15,553 nt of DNA from contig JAUXGM010000042.1 in the NCBI GenBank assembly GCA_030622125.1, positions 1-15,553 of the forward strand. Direction: 5' to 3'. Position numbers and translations under genes: made by a program. Shown here in pieces: positions 1,948 to 11,188 of the stretch (positions are counted from its first letter, which is position 1; every line of letters begins with the position of its first letter). The DNA is from a bacterium. Lineage in GTDB: Bacteria > AUK180. Under the pieces are notes generated by a model. It was not told the DNA's origin and ran no database searches. It saw nothing but the letters and a program-made list of their open reading frames with translations.

Positions 1948-2721
1948 TTAATCCAAAATGCTATAAATTGTCAAGAGTTTTTTTAACAATTTTTTTGTTT
2001 TGTCAAGATAATAAATATTTGCACTATCCGATGGTGATCTATTCGGTGAAGGATGAACTTCTAAAAAGACCCCGTCGGCACCGGCAGCAACGGCGGAACA
2101 AGCAATAGTTGGAACAAATTCGCGATTACCCAAGGTTATTCCTTCGCCGGCTCCCGGCATCTGAACGGAATGCGTGGCATCAATGATAATGGGCACACCA
2201 AATTTCTTCATAATCGGAATTCCCGTCATATCCACGACCAGCCGATTGTAACCGAATGTCGTTCCTCGTTCGGTTATCCACACACTGGAATTCCCAACAG
2301 AACGCACTTTATCAATAATATTTTTTACCTCATAAGGTGACAAAAATTGCCCCTTTTTAATGTTCACGGTCTTCATTGTTTCTGCCGCCTTTATTATAAG
2401 ATCGGTTTGTCTGCAAAGAAAAGCCGGGATCTGTAATACATCGGCAACATCCTTCACGATTTCAATTTGAGATGGAAGATGAACATCCGTTGTTATTTTG
2501 ATCTTTAATTTATCTTTGATATGAGAAAGTATTTCAATCCCTTTTTCAATTCCGGGACCCCTATACGAACCAATACTTGAACGATTTGCCTTATCAAAGG
2601 ATGCTTTAAAATAAAAATCAACAGAAAATTTTGAAGTGATCTCTTTTAGTCTTGCGGCAATTTCATAAGTTAAACTTTCATCTTCAATAACGCAGGGACC
2701 TGCTATAAATTTAAATGCCAT
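1948..2721 (-). CDS. kdsA: 3-deoxy-8-phosphooctulonate synthase (Kdo-8-P synthase)
   Basis: This cytoplasmic enzyme condenses phosphoenolpyruvate with arabinose 5-phosphate to form Kdo 8-phosphate, the first committed Kdo step. The 257-residue protein is slightly shorter than E. coli KdsA but complete. Hallmarks in order are AGPCVIE (residues 7-13), KASFDKANRSS near 40-50, TDVHLP near 79, IPAFLCRQTDL near 98-108, DATHSVQMPG near 181 and EVHPSPNRSPSDSAN near 221-235. The Cys10 in AGPC, with the later His, Glu and Asp, matches the metal-dependent class (Aquifex type), where E. coli KdsA has Asn. The ATG at 2721 lies inside the last codons of kdsB (11-base overlap), with AGAGG about 10 bases upstream, implying coupled translation. 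Confidence 0.95.
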   Translation of the reverse strand: MAFKFIAGPCVIEDESLTYEIAARLKEITSKFSVDFYFKASFDKANRSSIGSYRGPGIEKGIEILSHIKDKLKIKITTDVHLPSQIEIVKDVADVLQIPAFLCRQTDLIIKAAETMKTVNIKKGQFLSPYEVKNIIDKVRSVGNSSVWITERGTTFGYNRLVVDMTGIPIMKKFGVPIIIDATHSVQMPGAGEGITLGNREFVPTIACSAVAAGADGVFLEVHPSPNRSPSDSANIYYLDKTKKLLKKLLTIYSILD

Positions 2722-3427
2722 TTTTTAAAAACCTCTTTATTTTTTTTAGATCTTCCTCAGTATCGACACCTATGGTATCCTCTAATATCTGAGTAACAAA
2801 TATTTTGTATCCATGCTCCAATATTCTTAATTGTTCAAGATCCTCCGAGGATTCACATTTTAACGGTAATAATTTAAGATATTTTTTTATGAAATCTTTT
2901 CTATAAAGATAAACACCAATATGTTTATAATATGGACCTTTTGCAGGGATTGGACTCCTCGAAAAATACATTGCAGAATTATTCTTATTAAAGACAACCT
3001 TGACCTTATTGGGATCAAGGGCAGATGATGGAGAAAGCGGGAAATAATATGTTCCGCATACGAAACTACTATCCGCCACAGGAAACCTTTCAATCAAAAG
3101 ATCAATATACTTCCCTTTGAAAAGAGGTTCATCGCCCTGAAGATTAAAAATAAAATCATATTTATCAAAAGATCCTAAAACGGAAGCGATCCTTTCCGTT
3201 CCACTTTTTACATCCGATGAGGTCATAATTACCTTTCCGCCAAAATCCTCAACAACACTTGAGATTTTTTTATTATCCGTTAAAACAAAAACATCCTCAG
3301 AATAACAGCTTTTTTTTGCATTTTCCCATACCATTCGGATCATTGTTTTGCCGTCGATCTTTGCAAGCGGTTTTCCCGGAAAGCGGGTGGATCCATATCT
3401 TACGGGTATAACAATGCAAATTTTCAT
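2711..3427 (-). CDS. kdsB: 3-deoxy-manno-octulosonate cytidylyltransferase (CMP-Kdo synthetase)
   Basis: Activates Kdo with CTP to CMP-Kdo, the donor used to attach Kdo to lipid A. It acts in the cytoplasm. The 238-residue protein has the family's usual length. Recognisable motifs are the nucleotide-binding start VIPVRYGSTRFPGKPL (residues 6-21), NLQGDEPLF near 95-103 with the catalytic acidic residue, HIGVYLYRKDFI near 168-179, SSEDLEQLRILEHG near 190-203 and GVDTEEDL near 220-227. Its ATG overlaps the rfaE2 stop in an ATGA arrangement (4 bases), and its end overlaps kdsA by 11 bases. The Kdo-8-P phosphatase needed between KdsA and KdsB is not in the window. Confidence 0.95.
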   Translation of the reverse strand: MKICIVIPVRYGSTRFPGKPLAKIDGKTMIRMVWENAKKSCYSEDVFVLTDNKKISSVVEDFGGKVIMTSSDVKSGTERIASVLGSFDKYDFIFNLQGDEPLFKGKYIDLLIERFPVADSSFVCGTYYFPLSPSSALDPNKVKVVFNKNNSAMYFSRSPIPAKGPYYKHIGVYLYRKDFIKKYLKLLPLKCESSEDLEQLRILEHGYKIFVTQILEDTIGVDTEEDLKKIKRFLKNGI

Positions 3428-3906
3428 TTACAAAACCTCTCTTTTATCCGTTCAATAATGCTTGAACTGCTTGTTCGATGTAAAAACGGGACGGTTACCA
3501 CCTTTCCTCCGTTCTTAATAACCCCTTTTGCTCCTACAATATCATCTGTTTCGTAATCATTTCCTTTAACGAGAATATCGGGCATTACCCTGTTTATAAG
3601 ATCATACGGTGTATCTTCTTCAAATTTAATGATATAATCGACGAAATCGAGGTAGGATAAAAAATCCGCTCTTTCGTCAAAAGAAAAAATAGGTCTATTA
3701 ATGCCTTTTAATCTTTTAACGGATTGATCCGAATTTAATCCGACTATCAAAATATCTCCGAAATTTCGTGCTTTTTTCAAGTAATCAAGATGACCGATAT
3801 GTATCAGGTCAAAACAGCCGTTTGTGAAGACAATATTTTTTTTTGCGGATATTATTATTTTTAAATGTTTATTAAATGATCTAAAATCTTTGAAAACCTT
3901 ATTCAC
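3424..3906 (-). CDS. rfaE2: D-glycero-beta-D-manno-heptose 1-phosphate adenylyltransferase
   Basis: Transfers AMP from ATP to heptose 1-phosphate, giving ADP-heptose for the LPS inner core. The 160-residue protein corresponds to the C-terminal domain of bifunctional HldE, here a separate gene. Visible motifs are the cytidylyltransferase-fold TNGCFDLIHIGHLDYL near residues 28-43 (the HxGH site), GLNSDQSVKRLKG near 55-67, and VKGNDYETDD followed by the family's typical RTSSSSIIERI C-terminus. The start is a GTG at 3906, since no ATG precedes the conserved core. It overlaps the rfaE1 stop by 8 bases, so kinase and adenylyltransferase are probably made together. gmhA and gmhB, the other steps of the pathway, are not in the window. 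Confidence 0.92.
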   Translation of the reverse strand: MNKVFKDFRSFNKHLKIIISAKKNIVFTNGCFDLIHIGHLDYLKKARNFGDILIVGLNSDQSVKRLKGINRPIFSFDERADFLSYLDFVDYIIKFEEDTPYDLINRVMPDILVKGNDYETDDIVGAKGVIKNGGKVVTVPFLHRTSSSSIIERIKERFCK

Positions 3907-4858
3907 TTTCCAATATTTCCTTCATTATTTTTGGGGTGCAGGCAGTTGTTCCGATCTGTGTTACAACATAACTGGCTCCATAGTTAGCAAATTGCGATGC
4001 TTCAATAGGTGTAAAACCGGATACTATCGCCATAGTAAATATTGCAACAACGGTATCCCCGGCACCGGTTACATCATAAACCTTCTTGGCTCTTGTCGGT
4101 ATAAAATGGTAATTTCCGTCATACAACAGCATTCCTTTTGAACCCCTTGTTATTAAGGTAATTTCATTTTTACATTTTTTGTGTAATTTTTTAATTATTT
4201 GTTTTATGGGTATTTCCCTTTTCAAATGCAAAAGTGAGATCGCTTCACTAAAATTTGGTGTAATAGTGTATGTATCTTTATAAAAACCAATATCTCTTGT
4301 CGGGTGCGGATCAGCTACAGCAATAATCTCCCTTTTCGAACACCAGTCCGTAATTTTTTTCATAATAGAGGCATTCAAAAACCCTTTATTGTAATCCTCA
4401 ATGATAACACCATGATAAGATGTGTTCTTTAAGAGATTTAATATCTGCGCCCCCGATCTTAAATAGGTATTATCCGAATCGTAATCAATACGGACAACCT
4501 GTTGATTTAATGCAATTACCCGTTCTTTCAATATTGTTTTTAATCTTTTATTCTCAATAAGAAAATTACTGCTTATATTATTTTCTTTCAATAATTTTTT
4601 AATAATGTCGGCATCTTTATCCTTTCCTATAACGCCTACGAGAAGAGGAATACCTCCCATTTTGACAATATTTTTTGCGACATTTGCCGATGCACCGAGT
4701 TTATATTCTTCCTTTTCAATCTTTACAACGGGAACAGGGGCTTCAGGCGAAATTCTATCAACAGAACCATAAACATATTTATCTAAAATAATATCGCCTA
4801 TGATCAATATCCTTTTTCCCCTTATATTGTTAAGTTTTTTTAATAATAGTGTTTTCAT
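3899..4858 (-). CDS. rfaE1: D-glycero-beta-D-manno-heptose-7-phosphate kinase
   Basis: Phosphorylates heptose 7-phosphate at C1, using ATP, to the 1,7-bisphosphate. It corresponds to the N-terminal PfkB/ribokinase domain of HldE. The 319-residue protein is full length. Motifs are IIGDIILDKYVYGSVDRISP near residues 19-38 (sugar-binding start), a GASANVAKN version of the usual GAANVA stretch near 55-63, DPHPTRD and the following TPN..E near 185-206, and the PfkB signature VTGAGDTVVA near 265-274 holding the catalytic Asp. Its ATG overlaps the galT-like gene's stop in an ATGA arrangement (4 bases). Confidence 0.93.
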   Translation of the reverse strand: MKTLLLKKLNNIRGKRILIIGDIILDKYVYGSVDRISPEAPVPVVKIEKEEYKLGASANVAKNIVKMGGIPLLVGVIGKDKDADIIKKLLKENNISSNFLIENKRLKTILKERVIALNQQVVRIDYDSDNTYLRSGAQILNLLKNTSYHGVIIEDYNKGFLNASIMKKITDWCSKREIIAVADPHPTRDIGFYKDTYTITPNFSEAISLLHLKREIPIKQIIKKLHKKCKNEITLITRGSKGMLLYDGNYHFIPTRAKKVYDVTGAGDTVVAIFTMAIVSGFTPIEASQFANYGASYVVTQIGTTACTPKIMKEILESE

Positions 4859-5882: not shown

Positions 5883-7106
5883 TCACTCCTTTTTTTCTAT
5901 TATATCATTTATTATTTCAAAAATCAAAAAATTAAGTAGTTTTTTATCTTTTACGATCTCTTCTGTGGTTGTAGTTACATAATAATCATTCTTAAAATTA
6001 TTAAGCAGGGAAAATTTTGAAAATCCATTACTGATCTCAACAATAGCATCTTTATTCGGTTTTAAGCCTCTAATGGAGAGGTCATTTATGATATAATTAT
6101 TTAAATTATTAAATAATGTTTTCCATTTCGTACATTTTAAAACATAGGTATCTTTTTTATCCGTAAAGGTAGAAAAGAAAACCTTATATTCTTTTCCTTT
6201 ATAATTTATCAAAATGCTTTTTTGAGCCCGATGGCTTATTGAAATTATCCTGTATTCTTTCCATAATCTCTTTTCTATCGGATTTAAAAATGTCTTATTT
6301 ACCATAGGTGGTAATGTTATTTTTATTATGCCTTTTTTGAAAAATAGTATTGCCGTTTTTATTTTTCTTTCAGAACCGTCGGATAACCTATTCTTTATCG
6401 TTGTATTTTCGTTATTGCTTATTATAAGTTCGGAAGAACCACCTCCGTCAAGAGCAATTCCCGATAAACAACCGAGCTTTTTTAAAAATTTTCCGAGATT
6501 ATATTCATCTATTCCCCAGGAAATAAGAGATCTGCCTTCTACAACTACAAGATAAATACAATCCTTTGATATGCCAATTGCGCTCATCGGGTTCTTTTTC
6601 CCTTTTTTTGCAATGATAATTCCATTCCTTAGAAGAATATCTCCAACGGATAAAATTGCTCTGTATTTTTTTGCAAGATCGGTATTAAAATTTTGTTTTT
6701 TAATCTTTTCTATATCCAATGTTCCATTATTATTTATTAAGATACTTCCTCTATTGTAAAAACCTTTTCGAGATAAGATATTTCCATAGATGCTTAAAAT
6801 GCCCAATGTTTCATTATTTTCTCTACCGAAAAAGCCACCGTTAATACCAAGATCCGCTTTTGTTCTTTGCATAATTTTGGAAAGAGATTCTACATACGGG
6901 TCATTAACGAAATAAATATTCGGCTGATAAATTCCTTTTTTTATCTTTAAAACATGTGCAATTACTGGACCTTTATTGTAAAATGTGTATTTTTTATATT
7001 CATAGTCATTTGAATAGATTCCACCTATAACAAGTAAAAAAAGAAGTAAAAAAATTCTGTTTTTCATCATATCGTAAGTGCAAAACTTATGCCAATTTGA
7101 TTTCAT
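5883..7106 (-). CDS. Secreted phosphodiester glycosidase-like protein (NAGPA/DUF2233 domain)
   Basis: A 407-residue exported protein. The hydrophobic stretch after MMKNR (residues 13-32) is a signal peptide or anchor; a start at Met13 (7070) would give a more standard signal, but the upstream ATG at 7106 shares its A with the era stop (TAATG) and suits coupled translation. Residues about 50-270 match the phosphodiester glycosidase fold of human NAGPA and Bacillus YveA-like proteins: LGINGGFFG near 96-104 and LDGGGSSELII near 228-238 are the signature glycine motifs. Members cleave sugar-phosphodiester linkages. The C-terminal 135 residues are an extension I do not recognise, rich in Asn, Lys and aromatic residues. 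It lies between era and galT in the LPS-sugar operon, so an envelope glycan substrate is plausible but inferred. Confidence 0.8.
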   Translation of the reverse strand: MKSNWHKFCTYDMMKNRIFLLLFLLVIGGIYSNDYEYKKYTFYNKGPVIAHVLKIKKGIYQPNIYFVNDPYVESLSKIMQRTKADLGINGGFFGRENNETLGILSIYGNILSRKGFYNRGSILINNNGTLDIEKIKKQNFNTDLAKKYRAILSVGDILLRNGIIIAKKGKKNPMSAIGISKDCIYLVVVEGRSLISWGIDEYNLGKFLKKLGCLSGIALDGGGSSELIISNNENTTIKNRLSDGSERKIKTAILFFKKGIIKITLPPMVNKTFLNPIEKRLWKEYRIISISHRAQKSILINYKGKEYKVFFSTFTDKKDTYVLKCTKWKTLFNNLNNYIINDLSIRGLKPNKDAIVEISNGFSKFSLLNNFKNDYYVTTTTEEIVKDKKLLNFLIFEIINDIIEKKE

Positions 7107-7981
7107 TATACCGTATATCCAAGCATTTTTAAAAATTGTTCATCCTTTTGCCAATTTGATTTTACCTTTACAAAAAGATTTAGATAAAATTTCTTTTGAA
7201 ATATTCTTTCTAAGATCATTCTTGAATTTGTACCGATTCTTTTTGCCATAGCTCCTTCTTTTCCGATGATAATCCCTTTTTGTGATTTTCTTTCTACAAA
7301 GATCGTAGCATCTATTACAATAATATTTTTCTTTTCTTTCATTTGATCAACATATACGGCACAACCATAAGGTATCTCGTCGCCTAAAAAGTTAAAGATC
7401 GCCCCTTTTATTGCTTCTGCAATAATAAACCGCTCTGAATTTCCAGAGATATACTCTTGCGGATAATAGAAATCCCCCTCGGGAAGATAATTGAGGATCG
7501 CTTTTGTTACTTCATCGATCTTGATATTTTTTAAAGCGGAGATAGGAATAAAATCCTTTATAAAATCATTGTTTGATAGCTCCTTGATAATCGGAAGTAT
7601 TTTTGCTTTATCTATTTTATCAATCTTATTGAGAACACAAATTACATCCTTTTTACATTTTTGCAGCAATGCCAAAATATCCGCATCCGATTTGAAATGA
7701 TATACATCAACAAAGTAAAGAACGATCTCTGCCATTTCAAGTGACCCGATCGCCGAACCGTTCAATATTTTATTAAGTTCCATTTTCCTTTCGGTAATAC
7801 CGGGAGTATCAAGAAATACTATCTGAAAATCTTCTCCGTTCAATATCCCCGTTATTCGGTTGCGGGTGGTCTGCGGTCGTTTGGAAATTGAAGAGAGTGG
7901 GATCCTAAGCACGCTGTTTAGGAATGTCGATTTTCCTGCATTCGGTCTGCCAATAATTGTAACAAATCCTGATTTAATCAT
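7106..7981 (-). CDS. era: GTPase Era
   Basis: Ras-like GTPase that binds the 3' end of 16S rRNA and helps assemble the small ribosomal subunit. The 291-residue form starts at the ATG at 7981, giving the normal short lead before the G1 loop. A TTG at 8005 would add eight residues but falls inside the promoter. G motifs: GRPNAGKS (11-18, Ala where Val is usual), RPQTTRN near 35-41, DTPG near 61-64, NKID near 118-121 and SAL near 150-152. The C-terminal KH domain is present, with the GXXG loop in IIGKEGAMAKRIG near 240-252. It is the first gene of the operon: a strong promoter abuts its ATG and its stop is fused to the next start as TAATG. Confidence 0.96.
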   Translation of the reverse strand: MIKSGFVTIIGRPNAGKSTFLNSVLRIPLSSISKRPQTTRNRITGILNGEDFQIVFLDTPGITERKMELNKILNGSAIGSLEMAEIVLYFVDVYHFKSDADILALLQKCKKDVICVLNKIDKIDKAKILPIIKELSNNDFIKDFIPISALKNIKIDEVTKAILNYLPEGDFYYPQEYISGNSERFIIAEAIKGAIFNFLGDEIPYGCAVYVDQMKEKKNIIVIDATIFVERKSQKGIIIGKEGAMAKRIGTNSRMILERIFQKKFYLNLFVKVKSNWQKDEQFLKMLGYTV

Positions 7982-7987
7982 AGAGAT

Positions 7988-8016
7988 ATTATAATGATTT
8001 TCCAATTTTTTTTCAA
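7988..8016 (-). promoter_or_regulatory. Promoter of the era-LPS operon, apparently leaderless
   Basis: On the minus strand TTGAAA (8016-8011) and TATAAT (7993-7988) are separated by exactly 17 bases. Only 6 bases lie between the -10 box and the era ATG (7981), where transcription would normally begin. The predicted mRNA therefore starts at or next to the ATG and has no Shine-Dalgarno sequence. Confidence 0.7.
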
Positions 8017-9775: not shown

Positions 9776-11188
9776 TTAATCTTTTTCAATTATCTCCCAA
9801 TGCCCGCCCTTTGCTGGACCAATTCTTTTTATTTTTTTCCGTTGTTTTAACTTATTTAAATGATATTTTACTCCATTTTCTGTAATATTGCCTATTATCT
9901 TCGCAATTTCTTTTCTACTGGTATAAGGATTCTTTTTCAAAATCTCAATTATTTTCTGGGTAGTTTTCTGGGTAGTTTTCTGGGTAGTTTTCTGGGTAGT
10001 TTTCTGGGTAGTTTTTTTATTTCTTTTGTATTTTTTTTTCAAAAATGTTATCCTAAAAGCAATTCCTGGTTCACTCCATTTAAATTCTATTTCGGGATAA
10101 TTTTTCAAACTATCTGAAATTATTTTTAACCCATTTCCCCACTGTTCGATAATTCCGAGTTTTTTAAAAATAGGCGCAAGAACTTTGTTCCTAATTTCTG
10201 ATTGTCCTGCTTCCATTAAATCAAAATCAATGGAAGGCATTAATTTCCCTGGACTTGTAATCTCAATTTTATCATCAAAAATTGCGATTTTTATATCTTT
10301 ACCTGTTAAGGAATAATCCCTGTGAATTACAGCATTTCTGATAGCCTCTCTAATGGCATAGATAGGATATTCCCATTTATCTTTTCTATAAACTCCGTTA
10401 TAACCGGCTGTCCCTTGCGAAATGTGTCTTAGAACAAATTTAAAAGCTTTTTCCGGTTGTATTATTATACTTTCATCAATCGTTTTTCGATCTATGTAAT
10501 TCCCCGGTACTGTGCATTTAAATCGCGCACACTCTATCTTTGCATAGGGATAAAATTCATTTTTTAATTGATTATTTGATAATAAAATGAGAGCATTTAC
10601 AAAATAAAATTCACCTTTAAATTCTTTTATAAGATTCAATTTTTTCAATACTTGAATTGTTAATTTTTCTTTTGTTTTATCATAATAGAAATTTTTAAAA
10701 TGTTCTATGGCAAGGTCTGAAAACAATCTTTGATAAACAATTTCACCATCAAACGATAAATTTTTCTTTTGTCGCACTAATTCTTCAATAATTTCCTCTG
10801 TAGCAATTCTATTTGTAGAACCTACTCTAATATATGTTCCGTCTTTTATCCCTTTTGATTTTAGGAAATAAGGTGGATTACTTCCTTTAAAAATTTTTAC
10901 CTTCAATAAAATCTTGCCTTCAACATTAAGCATACTTATTTCAGGGAGAATTAATGGTTCAGAACTATCATAAATAATGTTTGAAATTTTTTCCTCTATT
11001 TCTAATATCTTTTCAGCATCTACACCAACAATTTCCCTTGGTTTATCTTTTACACCAACATATATTTCTCCACCCGCATCATTAGCAAATGCAATAATTG
11101 TTTTAGTTAAATCGAATTTAGAAGGAAGTTTTTCTTTAAACTCAATTCTTCTCCCTTCAGGCTGTTTAATTCTATCAATAAAATTCAT
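9776..11188 (-). CDS. AlbA_2 (Schlafen-type) / GHKL ATPase-like transcriptional regulator with TTQK repeat linker
   Basis: A 470-residue protein of the COG2865 type, often annotated as RecG-like or as a putative transcriptional regulator. Residues 1-135 are the AlbA_2/Schlafen-core domain (IEFKEKLP at 15-22, AFANDAGGEIYVGVKD at 33-48, IRVGSTNRIA at 120-129). Residues about 270-385 form a GHKL-like ATPase module: EAIRNAVIHRDYS at 281-293 as the N box and ITSPGKL at 310-316. Residues 393-412 are five exact TTQK repeats. Residues about 413-470 form a winged helix (ILKKNPYTSRKEIAKIIG). The start ATG (11188) has GAGG 9 bases upstream. It probably senses a nucleotide and binds DNA or RNA; relatives occur in regulation and in phage-defence settings, and this sequence does not decide between them. 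Confidence 0.82.
   Translation of the reverse strand: MNFIDRIKQPEGRRIEFKEKLPSKFDLTKTIIAFANDAGGEIYVGVKDKPREIVGVDAEKILEIEEKISNIIYDSSEPLILPEISMLNVEGKILLKVKIFKGSNPPYFLKSKGIKDGTYIRVGSTNRIATEEIIEELVRQKKNLSFDGEIVYQRLFSDLAIEHFKNFYYDKTKEKLTIQVLKKLNLIKEFKGEFYFVNALILLSNNQLKNEFYPYAKIECARFKCTVPGNYIDRKTIDESIIIQPEKAFKFVLRHISQGTAGYNGVYRKDKWEYPIYAIREAIRNAVIHRDYSLTGKDIKIAIFDDKIEITSPGKLMPSIDFDLMEAGQSEIRNKVLAPIFKKLGIIEQWGNGLKIISDSLKNYPEIEFKWSEPGIAFRITFLKKKYKRNKKTTQKTTQKTTQKTTQKTTQKIIEILKKNPYTSRKEIAKIIGNITENGVKYHLNKLKQRKKIKRIGPAKGGHWEIIEKD
9952..10011 (-). repeat. Five perfect 12-base tandem repeats encoding TTQK
   Basis: TTTTCTGGGTAG (plus strand) is repeated five times with no mismatch, in frame within the AlbA_2 regulator, and each unit encodes Thr-Thr-Gln-Lys. 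The perfect identity at DNA level, not only in protein, shows recent copy-number change. Because 12 is a multiple of 3, gain or loss of units changes the linker length without shifting the reading frame. Confidence 0.9.

Follow-up and report, generated by a model that had tools for sequence, protein, structure and literature searches.

Transcription factors with a winged helix-turn-helix (wHTH) domain of the Lrp/AsnC and CAP types usually have palindromic operators as their targets, located upstream of genes. In the TubR-tubC system a wHTH protein occupies 12-bp direct repeats arranged in an array, which serves as a plasmid centromere and is situated outside the gene. Binding sites can also lie within a coding sequence: the rep gene of pSK41 contains four Rep boxes bound by the wHTH of its own product, the box region codes for a linker with a dispensable amino-acid sequence, and in pPR9 the DNA-binding part and the origin have been swapped together (PMC5703833). 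Finally, in the HsdS specificity subunits the TAEL repeat is a 12-bp in-frame unit encoding four residues and present in a variable number; it forms an alpha-helix that acts as a spacer and determines the gap in the target, and the adjoining recognition domains are exchanged (PMC3874165).

The gene considered here combines in-frame 12-bp direct repeats with an adjacent wHTH domain, and very probably the repeats form a self-recognised tandem site, so that the key and the lock reside in one gene, with a likely autoregulatory role. A literature search over open-licence papers retrieved no account of self-recognised coding arrays in AlbA_2/HATPase or Fic genes.

The gene and its array

The window, that is, the whole stretch of 15,553 nucleotides that was analysed (GenBank contig JAUXGM010000042.1), contains the following features of the gene.

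9776..11188, minus strand: SLFN_AlbA_2 - HATPase_c_4 - 12-bp array - wHTH gene (ORF, 470 aa)
10802..11158, minus strand: SLFN_AlbA_2 domain, residues 11-129 (Pfam PF04326, E 1.1e-23)
10043..10303, minus strand: HATPase_c_4 domain, residues 296-382 (Pfam PF13749, E 6.9e-23)
9952..10015, minus strand: array of 12-bp units AAAACTACCCAG (sense strand), 5.3 copies (Tandem Repeats Finder)
9788..9967, minus strand: winged helix, residues 408-467, KTTQKIIEIL...GGHWEI (HTH_24 match, profile A1, model)
9848..9880, minus strand: start of the recognition helix, ENGVKYHLNKL, residues 437-447 (covariation analysis and model)

The Pfam scan and the model assign to the protein all three characters of SLFN_AlbA_2 - HATPase_c_4 - wHTH proteins, the scores being 84.5 bits for SLFN_AlbA_2 (gathering cut-off 25.3), 80.9 bits for HATPase_c_4 (cut-off 26) and 27.6 bits for HTH_24 at residues 408-453 (cut-off 21.9). 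In the same scan we observed neither target-recognition domains of type I S subunits nor a RepA_N or replication domain. The AlphaFold model (mean pLDDT 87.7) shows a well-formed wHTH, with helices up to residue 419, at 425-432 and at 437-449, wing strands at 453-456 and 463-466, and a wing loop at 457-462, while residues 391-401, the first half of the repeat, have pLDDT below 50. The domain is Lrp/AsnC- and CAP-like, as follows from its homology to PDB entries 1i1g, 2e1c and 1cgp.

The array has period 12, 5.3 copies and 100% matches (Tandem Repeats Finder score 128, compared to 47 for the runner-up in the window), confirming the five perfect 12-base repeats that the sequence-only reading had reported. 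It encodes (KTTQ)x5, residues 392-411, and is placed between HATPase_c_4 and HTH_24. Pfam likewise agrees with the domain order proposed in that reading, a GHKL-like module, the repeats and the winged helix, with the correction that the array does not simply precede the wHTH but abuts and overlaps it, the last KTTQ being the first turn of the domain. An on/off phase-variable contingency locus, for which the unit should not be a multiple of three, was rejected, as the 12-bp unit keeps the reading frame.

In the host genome (2.08 Mb) this is the sole (TTQK)2 array, and there also are weaker paralogues of the gene, one of which (G000:C15:15421-16137, L011/L012) has AAAAGTTGGGAG-type sites every 22 bp, matching its STTAVENN helix. 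The neighbours in the window are chromosomal-type genes, e.g. those of Era and KDO-type enzymes. An Era-like GTPase (7106-8005) lies alongside envelope genes; the KDO/ADP-heptose-type genes at 1948-4858 (DAHP synthetase-family KdsA-like, cytidylyltransferase KdsB-like, nucleotidyltransferase, PfkB kinase) are a part of a Gram-negative envelope gene cluster; and a CsgG-like/DUF6340 lipoprotein is encoded at 516-1520. No defence neighbourhood was found around the gene, and membership in a defence system was rejected, the padloc matches being to pAgo/SIR2-type models that span the AlbA_2/HATPase domains.

The array in related genes

Homologues come from many bacterial phyla and archaea. On viral contigs they are few (3 and 3 loci), hence a phage trait was rejected for the family; the E. 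coli plasmid homologues retrieved by the protein search are distant (26% over query residues 3-379).

The repeats occur at this place far more often than expected by chance: four residues is the best peptide period in 75 of 138 homologues, compared to 4 of 211 neighbouring ORFs and to none of the shuffled sequences. At the DNA level, we scanned the region just 3' of the HATPase domain in 328 genes and observed the best period of 12 bp in 205 of them, 11 bp in 12, and 13 bp in 2, with no such arrays in shuffled sequences. About 30% of the wHTH modules (95/322) lack an array at the threshold used. The array abuts the wHTH, and in the commonest class the last unit serves as the first turn of this domain. 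The array sequences AAAACTACCCAG, AAAACTGTGGAG and AAAAGTTCGGAG are examples; the peptides that the units encode have no chemistry in common (KTVE, TREK, SSEK, VTPQ, KWPE, VNVP, IDGA, TDND, KTTQ, GGQK, and others).

In a second wHTH class, marked by the MTIPDKP motif, 11-bp arrays occur (GGGACCAAGTC, for example), in which the frame is broken and the peptide repeat is 11 residues long; these are found in the proteins most closely related to the window protein at the N-terminus (L044, L045, L046, L049, L052, L058), and 12-bp arrays with the CAAGT core also occur in this class (L026, L027, L106). It probably follows the same principle with another domain. In four genomes of rumen Bacteroidia (G045-G048) the family is greatly expanded, with 17-29 HATPase_c_4 (PF13749) matches per genome.

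Constraint on the unit

We compared 69 pairs of arrays that share a unit peptide while their wHTH domains are less than 75% identical. The unit codons are identical in 254 of 276 cases (92%), whereas identical residues of the adjoining wHTH are encoded by the same codon in 787 of 1765 cases (45%). Thus, recent transfer of the cassette fails to explain the shared unit codons. For instance, Bacteroidota, Elusimicrobiota and archaea encode KTVE as AAA ACT GTG GAG (with GAA at the end of one array), KSSE is AAA AGT TCG GAG from Methanococcoides through Bacteroidota, and TREK units have the codon AGG in every case. Within arrays, synonymous codons are identical in 835 of 886 cases, with 47% expected.

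The same DNA is also found in different frames and at different spacing. The unit AAAACTGTGGAG is read as KTVE and, in a different phase, as GENC, both with the helix RRGIEW; the GENC phase is seen in L416 and, with one base changed, in L381, the helices being RRGIEW or LRGVEW. In L369, the core ACTGTGGAG occurs in two phases with mixed spacing. The spacing is 11 bp for AAACTATCCAG in L097 and 13 bp for AAAAAGTACCCAG in L074, and the AAAAGTTGGGAG-like sites that the TTAVEN helix of the host-genome paralogue L011 would call for recur in its gene every 22 bp. The 11-, 13- and 22-bp arrays retain the motif core, and those with 11 and 13 bp break the frame.

These comparisons indicate that the constraint on the array unit acts at the level of the DNA and not of the peptide. 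Hence the identity of the repeats is not merely a trace of recent expansion, as had been suggested from the window alone, since synonymous sites of the unit are kept across phyla, in various phases and at 11/13-bp spacing. We also checked whether conservation at the protein level could account for the repeats, and it does not, the constraint being on the DNA.

Recognition-helix residues and unit bases

The covariation set comprised 204 non-redundant array-wHTH pairs, aligned to each other. In the regression of unit similarity over these 204 arrays, the strongest columns were 33 (z 14.2), 31 (z 11.4) and 34 (z 9.8), followed by the weaker columns 51 (z 5.6), 30 (z 5.3) and 53 (z 4.5); kinship among sequences inflates these raw z-scores, although close kin were left out and the rest of the domain was used as a control. 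Columns 30, 31, 33 and 34 form the start of the recognition helix, and columns 51 and 53 belong to the wing. Column 32, which is hydrophobic, and all the others, those of the core included, are near zero, with the exception of columns 1-4, which overlap the repeat.

Mutual information links column 31 with bases 5-6, column 34 with base 5, column 33 with bases 9-10, column 30 with base 8, and column 51 with base 12. Protein pairs differing only at column 33 show base differences of 0.72 and 0.76 at bases 9-10 (base 11 being next, 0.59), and those differing only at column 30, of 0.76 and 0.88 at bases 7-8, while proteins identical at all four columns have 1-6% differences over bases 1-10.

The bases can be predicted from these residues when relatives with at least 60% identity are excluded. 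The nearest protein by the four residues gives 4.56 of 6 bases (bases 5-10) correctly, compared to 2.1 for a random one, and if all four residues match, 5.39 of 6 bases are correct and 76% of the units are wholly correct. The nearest neighbour by the rest of the domain yields 2.6-2.8 of 6 bases (2.83), with 6% of units wholly correct. None of 20000 permutations reached the observed value (0/20000); without the freedom to rotate the unit the values are 5.32 vs 3.07; and among all four-residue frames of equal shape, the one starting at column 30 (30/31/33/34) is the best. Prediction across phases is weaker for phase-1 units (2.58 vs 1.86 of 6).

Particular residues correspond to particular bases. 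For columns 31 and 34 taken together, Gly-Trp goes with CT (38/38), Gly-Tyr with CT (11/11), Ala-Lys with GT (34/36), Gly-Lys with GT (10/10), Lys-Glu with GG (7/7) and Ala-Met with CT (4/4); for column 33, Glu goes with GG (79/86), Lys with CC (31/40) and Ala with AC (12/12). In the usual chemistry of such contacts, Lys is opposite guanines on the other strand, and Glu is opposite cytosines. The coupled columns map to the recognition helix, the element that in CAP carries the base-contacting residues R180, E181 and R185, which by the alignment register are columns 29, 30 and 34. In the window protein, columns 30, 31, 33 and 34 are N438, G439, K441 and Y442. With AAAACTACCCAG they obey the code: of the six bases, 6 and 5 are given correctly by the two proteins that match N-G-K-Y at all four residues. 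The AlphaFold model places these coupled residues where helix 437-449 starts, and A459 (column 51) in the wing loop.

Since unit bases 5-10 change in step with four recognition-helix residues, the array is a candidate cognate site, and we are highly confident in predicting that the adjacent wHTH binds it as a tandem site. The tracking of bases by residues is independent of the peptide sequence and of the codon phase, independence of the spacing (11/12/13 bp) having been tested less thoroughly. The view of the sequence-only reading that DNA binding is what matters is thus supported.

Beyond the gene, its own unit is not enriched (15 vs 13.3), and the operator search, in which own units were not enriched in the flanks, found no upstream operator; in the ten genomes scanned, tandem AAAACT-type pairs are nearly all within such arrays. 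Hence, judging from these counts, the main tandem target would be the gene itself.

Copy number and exchange of the cassette

The number of units was compared in close species-level pairs rather than in E. coli strains. In near-identical genes it differs by one unit between Fibrobacter L059 and L060, by three between L319 and L320, where the flanking domains are 99.7% and 100% identical, and by four between L186 and L228, with the reservation that many of the sources are metagenome assemblies and short reads can miscount repeats. The expectation that in-frame units allow the length to change is borne out by these whole-unit differences.

The array and the wHTH behave as one exchangeable cassette. 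In sister genomes with the AlbA_2-HATPase part 97-99% identical, both the array and the wHTH are replaced, while the last residues (GGHWEIIENKTKTE and the like, the GGHWEII tail) are kept. In G001, a genome of the window's own family, one protein is 66% identical to the window protein up to the array and has another C-terminus, and another one is 73% identical from the array onward. In the contig MENF01000072.1 (L101/L250; L101 694-4928), seven partial C-terminal cassettes surround one full gene. They comprise the end of the HATPase, a linker or an array, and the wHTH, with several different arrays, and the DNA repeats of this bank are 63-90% alike. The bank resembles orphan tips of Rhs/CDI genes, and smaller banks are seen at L103, L104, L070, L078 and L121. 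Some proteins (L238, L220, L178; L192; L142; L162; L257) have two successive array-wHTH pairs, mostly with different units, and the same cassette is borne by Fic/DOC proteins. Units are shared by 0 of 86 pairs of paralogues within a genome and by 7 of 410 pairs between genomes, the numbers being too small for a claim.

Possible roles of the array

If the array is a self-recognised site, wHTH protomers would bind three to five units side by side near the 3' end of the gene. The bound array would then most likely provide negative autoregulation, which is the simplest account, as an intragenic operator or a roadblock, graded by the number of units, and an operator carried beside its reader would still fit the wHTH after a swap of the cassette. 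Whether negative autoregulation is the main purpose of the array we would put at even chances; an operator at the 3' end is unusual for autoregulation, and this counts against the proposal.

Two other roles seem doubtful, to a similar extent. First, the protein could bind its own gene in order to promote exchange of cassettes among paralogues and orphan cassettes, hence switching specificity. This agrees with the wholly different arrays and wHTHs found behind 97-99% identical N-parts in sister species that keep the GGHWEII tail, with the seven-cassette bank flanking the full gene in L250/L101, and with up to 29 PF13749 matches per genome; however, plain homologous recombination between the flanking sequences may be enough, and many genes, including the one in the window, are solitary. 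Second, the array could be a platform on which the AlbA_2/HATPase or Fic effector is assembled or activated on DNA, as a sensor or in defence. Tandem sites suit the assembly of oligomers, and the cassette is indeed joined to unrelated effectors, AlbA_2-HATPase and Fic/DOC, but the window gene has no defence neighbourhood, and the padloc matches are those pAgo/SIR2-type models that span the same domains.

It is rather improbable that the array is primarily a variable-length protein linker, whose tetrapeptides space the HATPase from the wHTH and tune the geometry like TAEL in HsdS, as the sequence-only reading proposed. The part of that proposal concerning length stands: the 12-bp units are in frame, the array is located between two domains, near-identical genes differ by whole units, and the linker must change its length regardless of the role of the DNA. 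The spacer role does not, as the unit DNA is predicted by the recognition helix. Moreover, the unit chemistry is unconstrained (KTTQ, TREK, VNVP, GGQK, KWPE, IDGA), synonymous codons are kept across phyla, one DNA motif is used in different frames, and there exist periods of 11 and 13 bp. A helical spacer of the HsdS type was rejected on the same grounds, the unit peptides VNVP, KGGQ, IDGA and KWPE being unrelated and the constraint acting on DNA.

Functionless slippage of 12-bp repeats at a tolerant linker would yield the variable copy number and the identity of synonymous codons within arrays (835/886), as would gene conversion, and is the likely mechanism of copy-number change, but as a full account it is hardly credible and is refuted by the regression, by the prediction of bases from recognition residues, and by the presence of one and the same unit DNA in phyla that are far apart and whose wHTHs have diverged.

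Taking the array as a self-recognised site, we consider it probable that these genes contain widespread mobile lock-and-key cassettes, in which a wHTH with its own sites is joined to unrelated effectors, exchanged as a unit and evolving new specificities. If so, recognition pairs of protein and DNA are naturally catalogued in chromosomes, each gene recording its own target. For most DNA-binding proteins finding the target needs an experiment, whereas here, in bacteria and archaea, it is apparently printed beside the domain that reads it, with a residue-to-base code legible from sequence (Glu33-GG, Lys33-CC, Gly31-Trp34-CT, Ala31-Lys34-GT). This would provide candidate DNA targets for a long-uncharacterised family (Schlafen-like AlbA_2, GHKL-type fold) and for a part of the Fic family. 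Self-recognition would also account for the conspicuous repeat across genomes, and it raises the question of why a protein should chiefly bind its own gene. More generally, what looks like a low-complexity linker can turn out to be a DNA element within a coding sequence.

Comparison with known systems

The domains of the window protein are those of SLFN_AlbA_2/HATPase_c_4 (RecG-like C-terminal) proteins. With the Lrp/AsnC and CAP regulators it shares a homologous wHTH with the coupled columns on the recognition helix, although, unlike their operators, the window array consists of direct repeats within a gene. TubR-tubC is similar in having 12-bp direct repeats and a wHTH, and differs in that tubC is not linked to a coding sequence. 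The TAEL repeat of HsdS has the same 12-bp format, but TAEL is not a target, whereas here the unit DNA is the proposed one.

The nearest precedent is the RepA_N rep of the pSK41 type, with a wHTH and tandem boxes inside its own gene in common, the binding being suggested in our case by covariation only. That rep is a plasmid replication initiator and its boxes are the origin, whereas the window gene lies among chromosomal-type genes and encodes an AlbA_2-HATPase protein (or, elsewhere, Fic). Also in contrast to pSK41 rep, the units here are 12 (11/13) bp long, precede the wHTH, and comprise many subtypes under one readable code.
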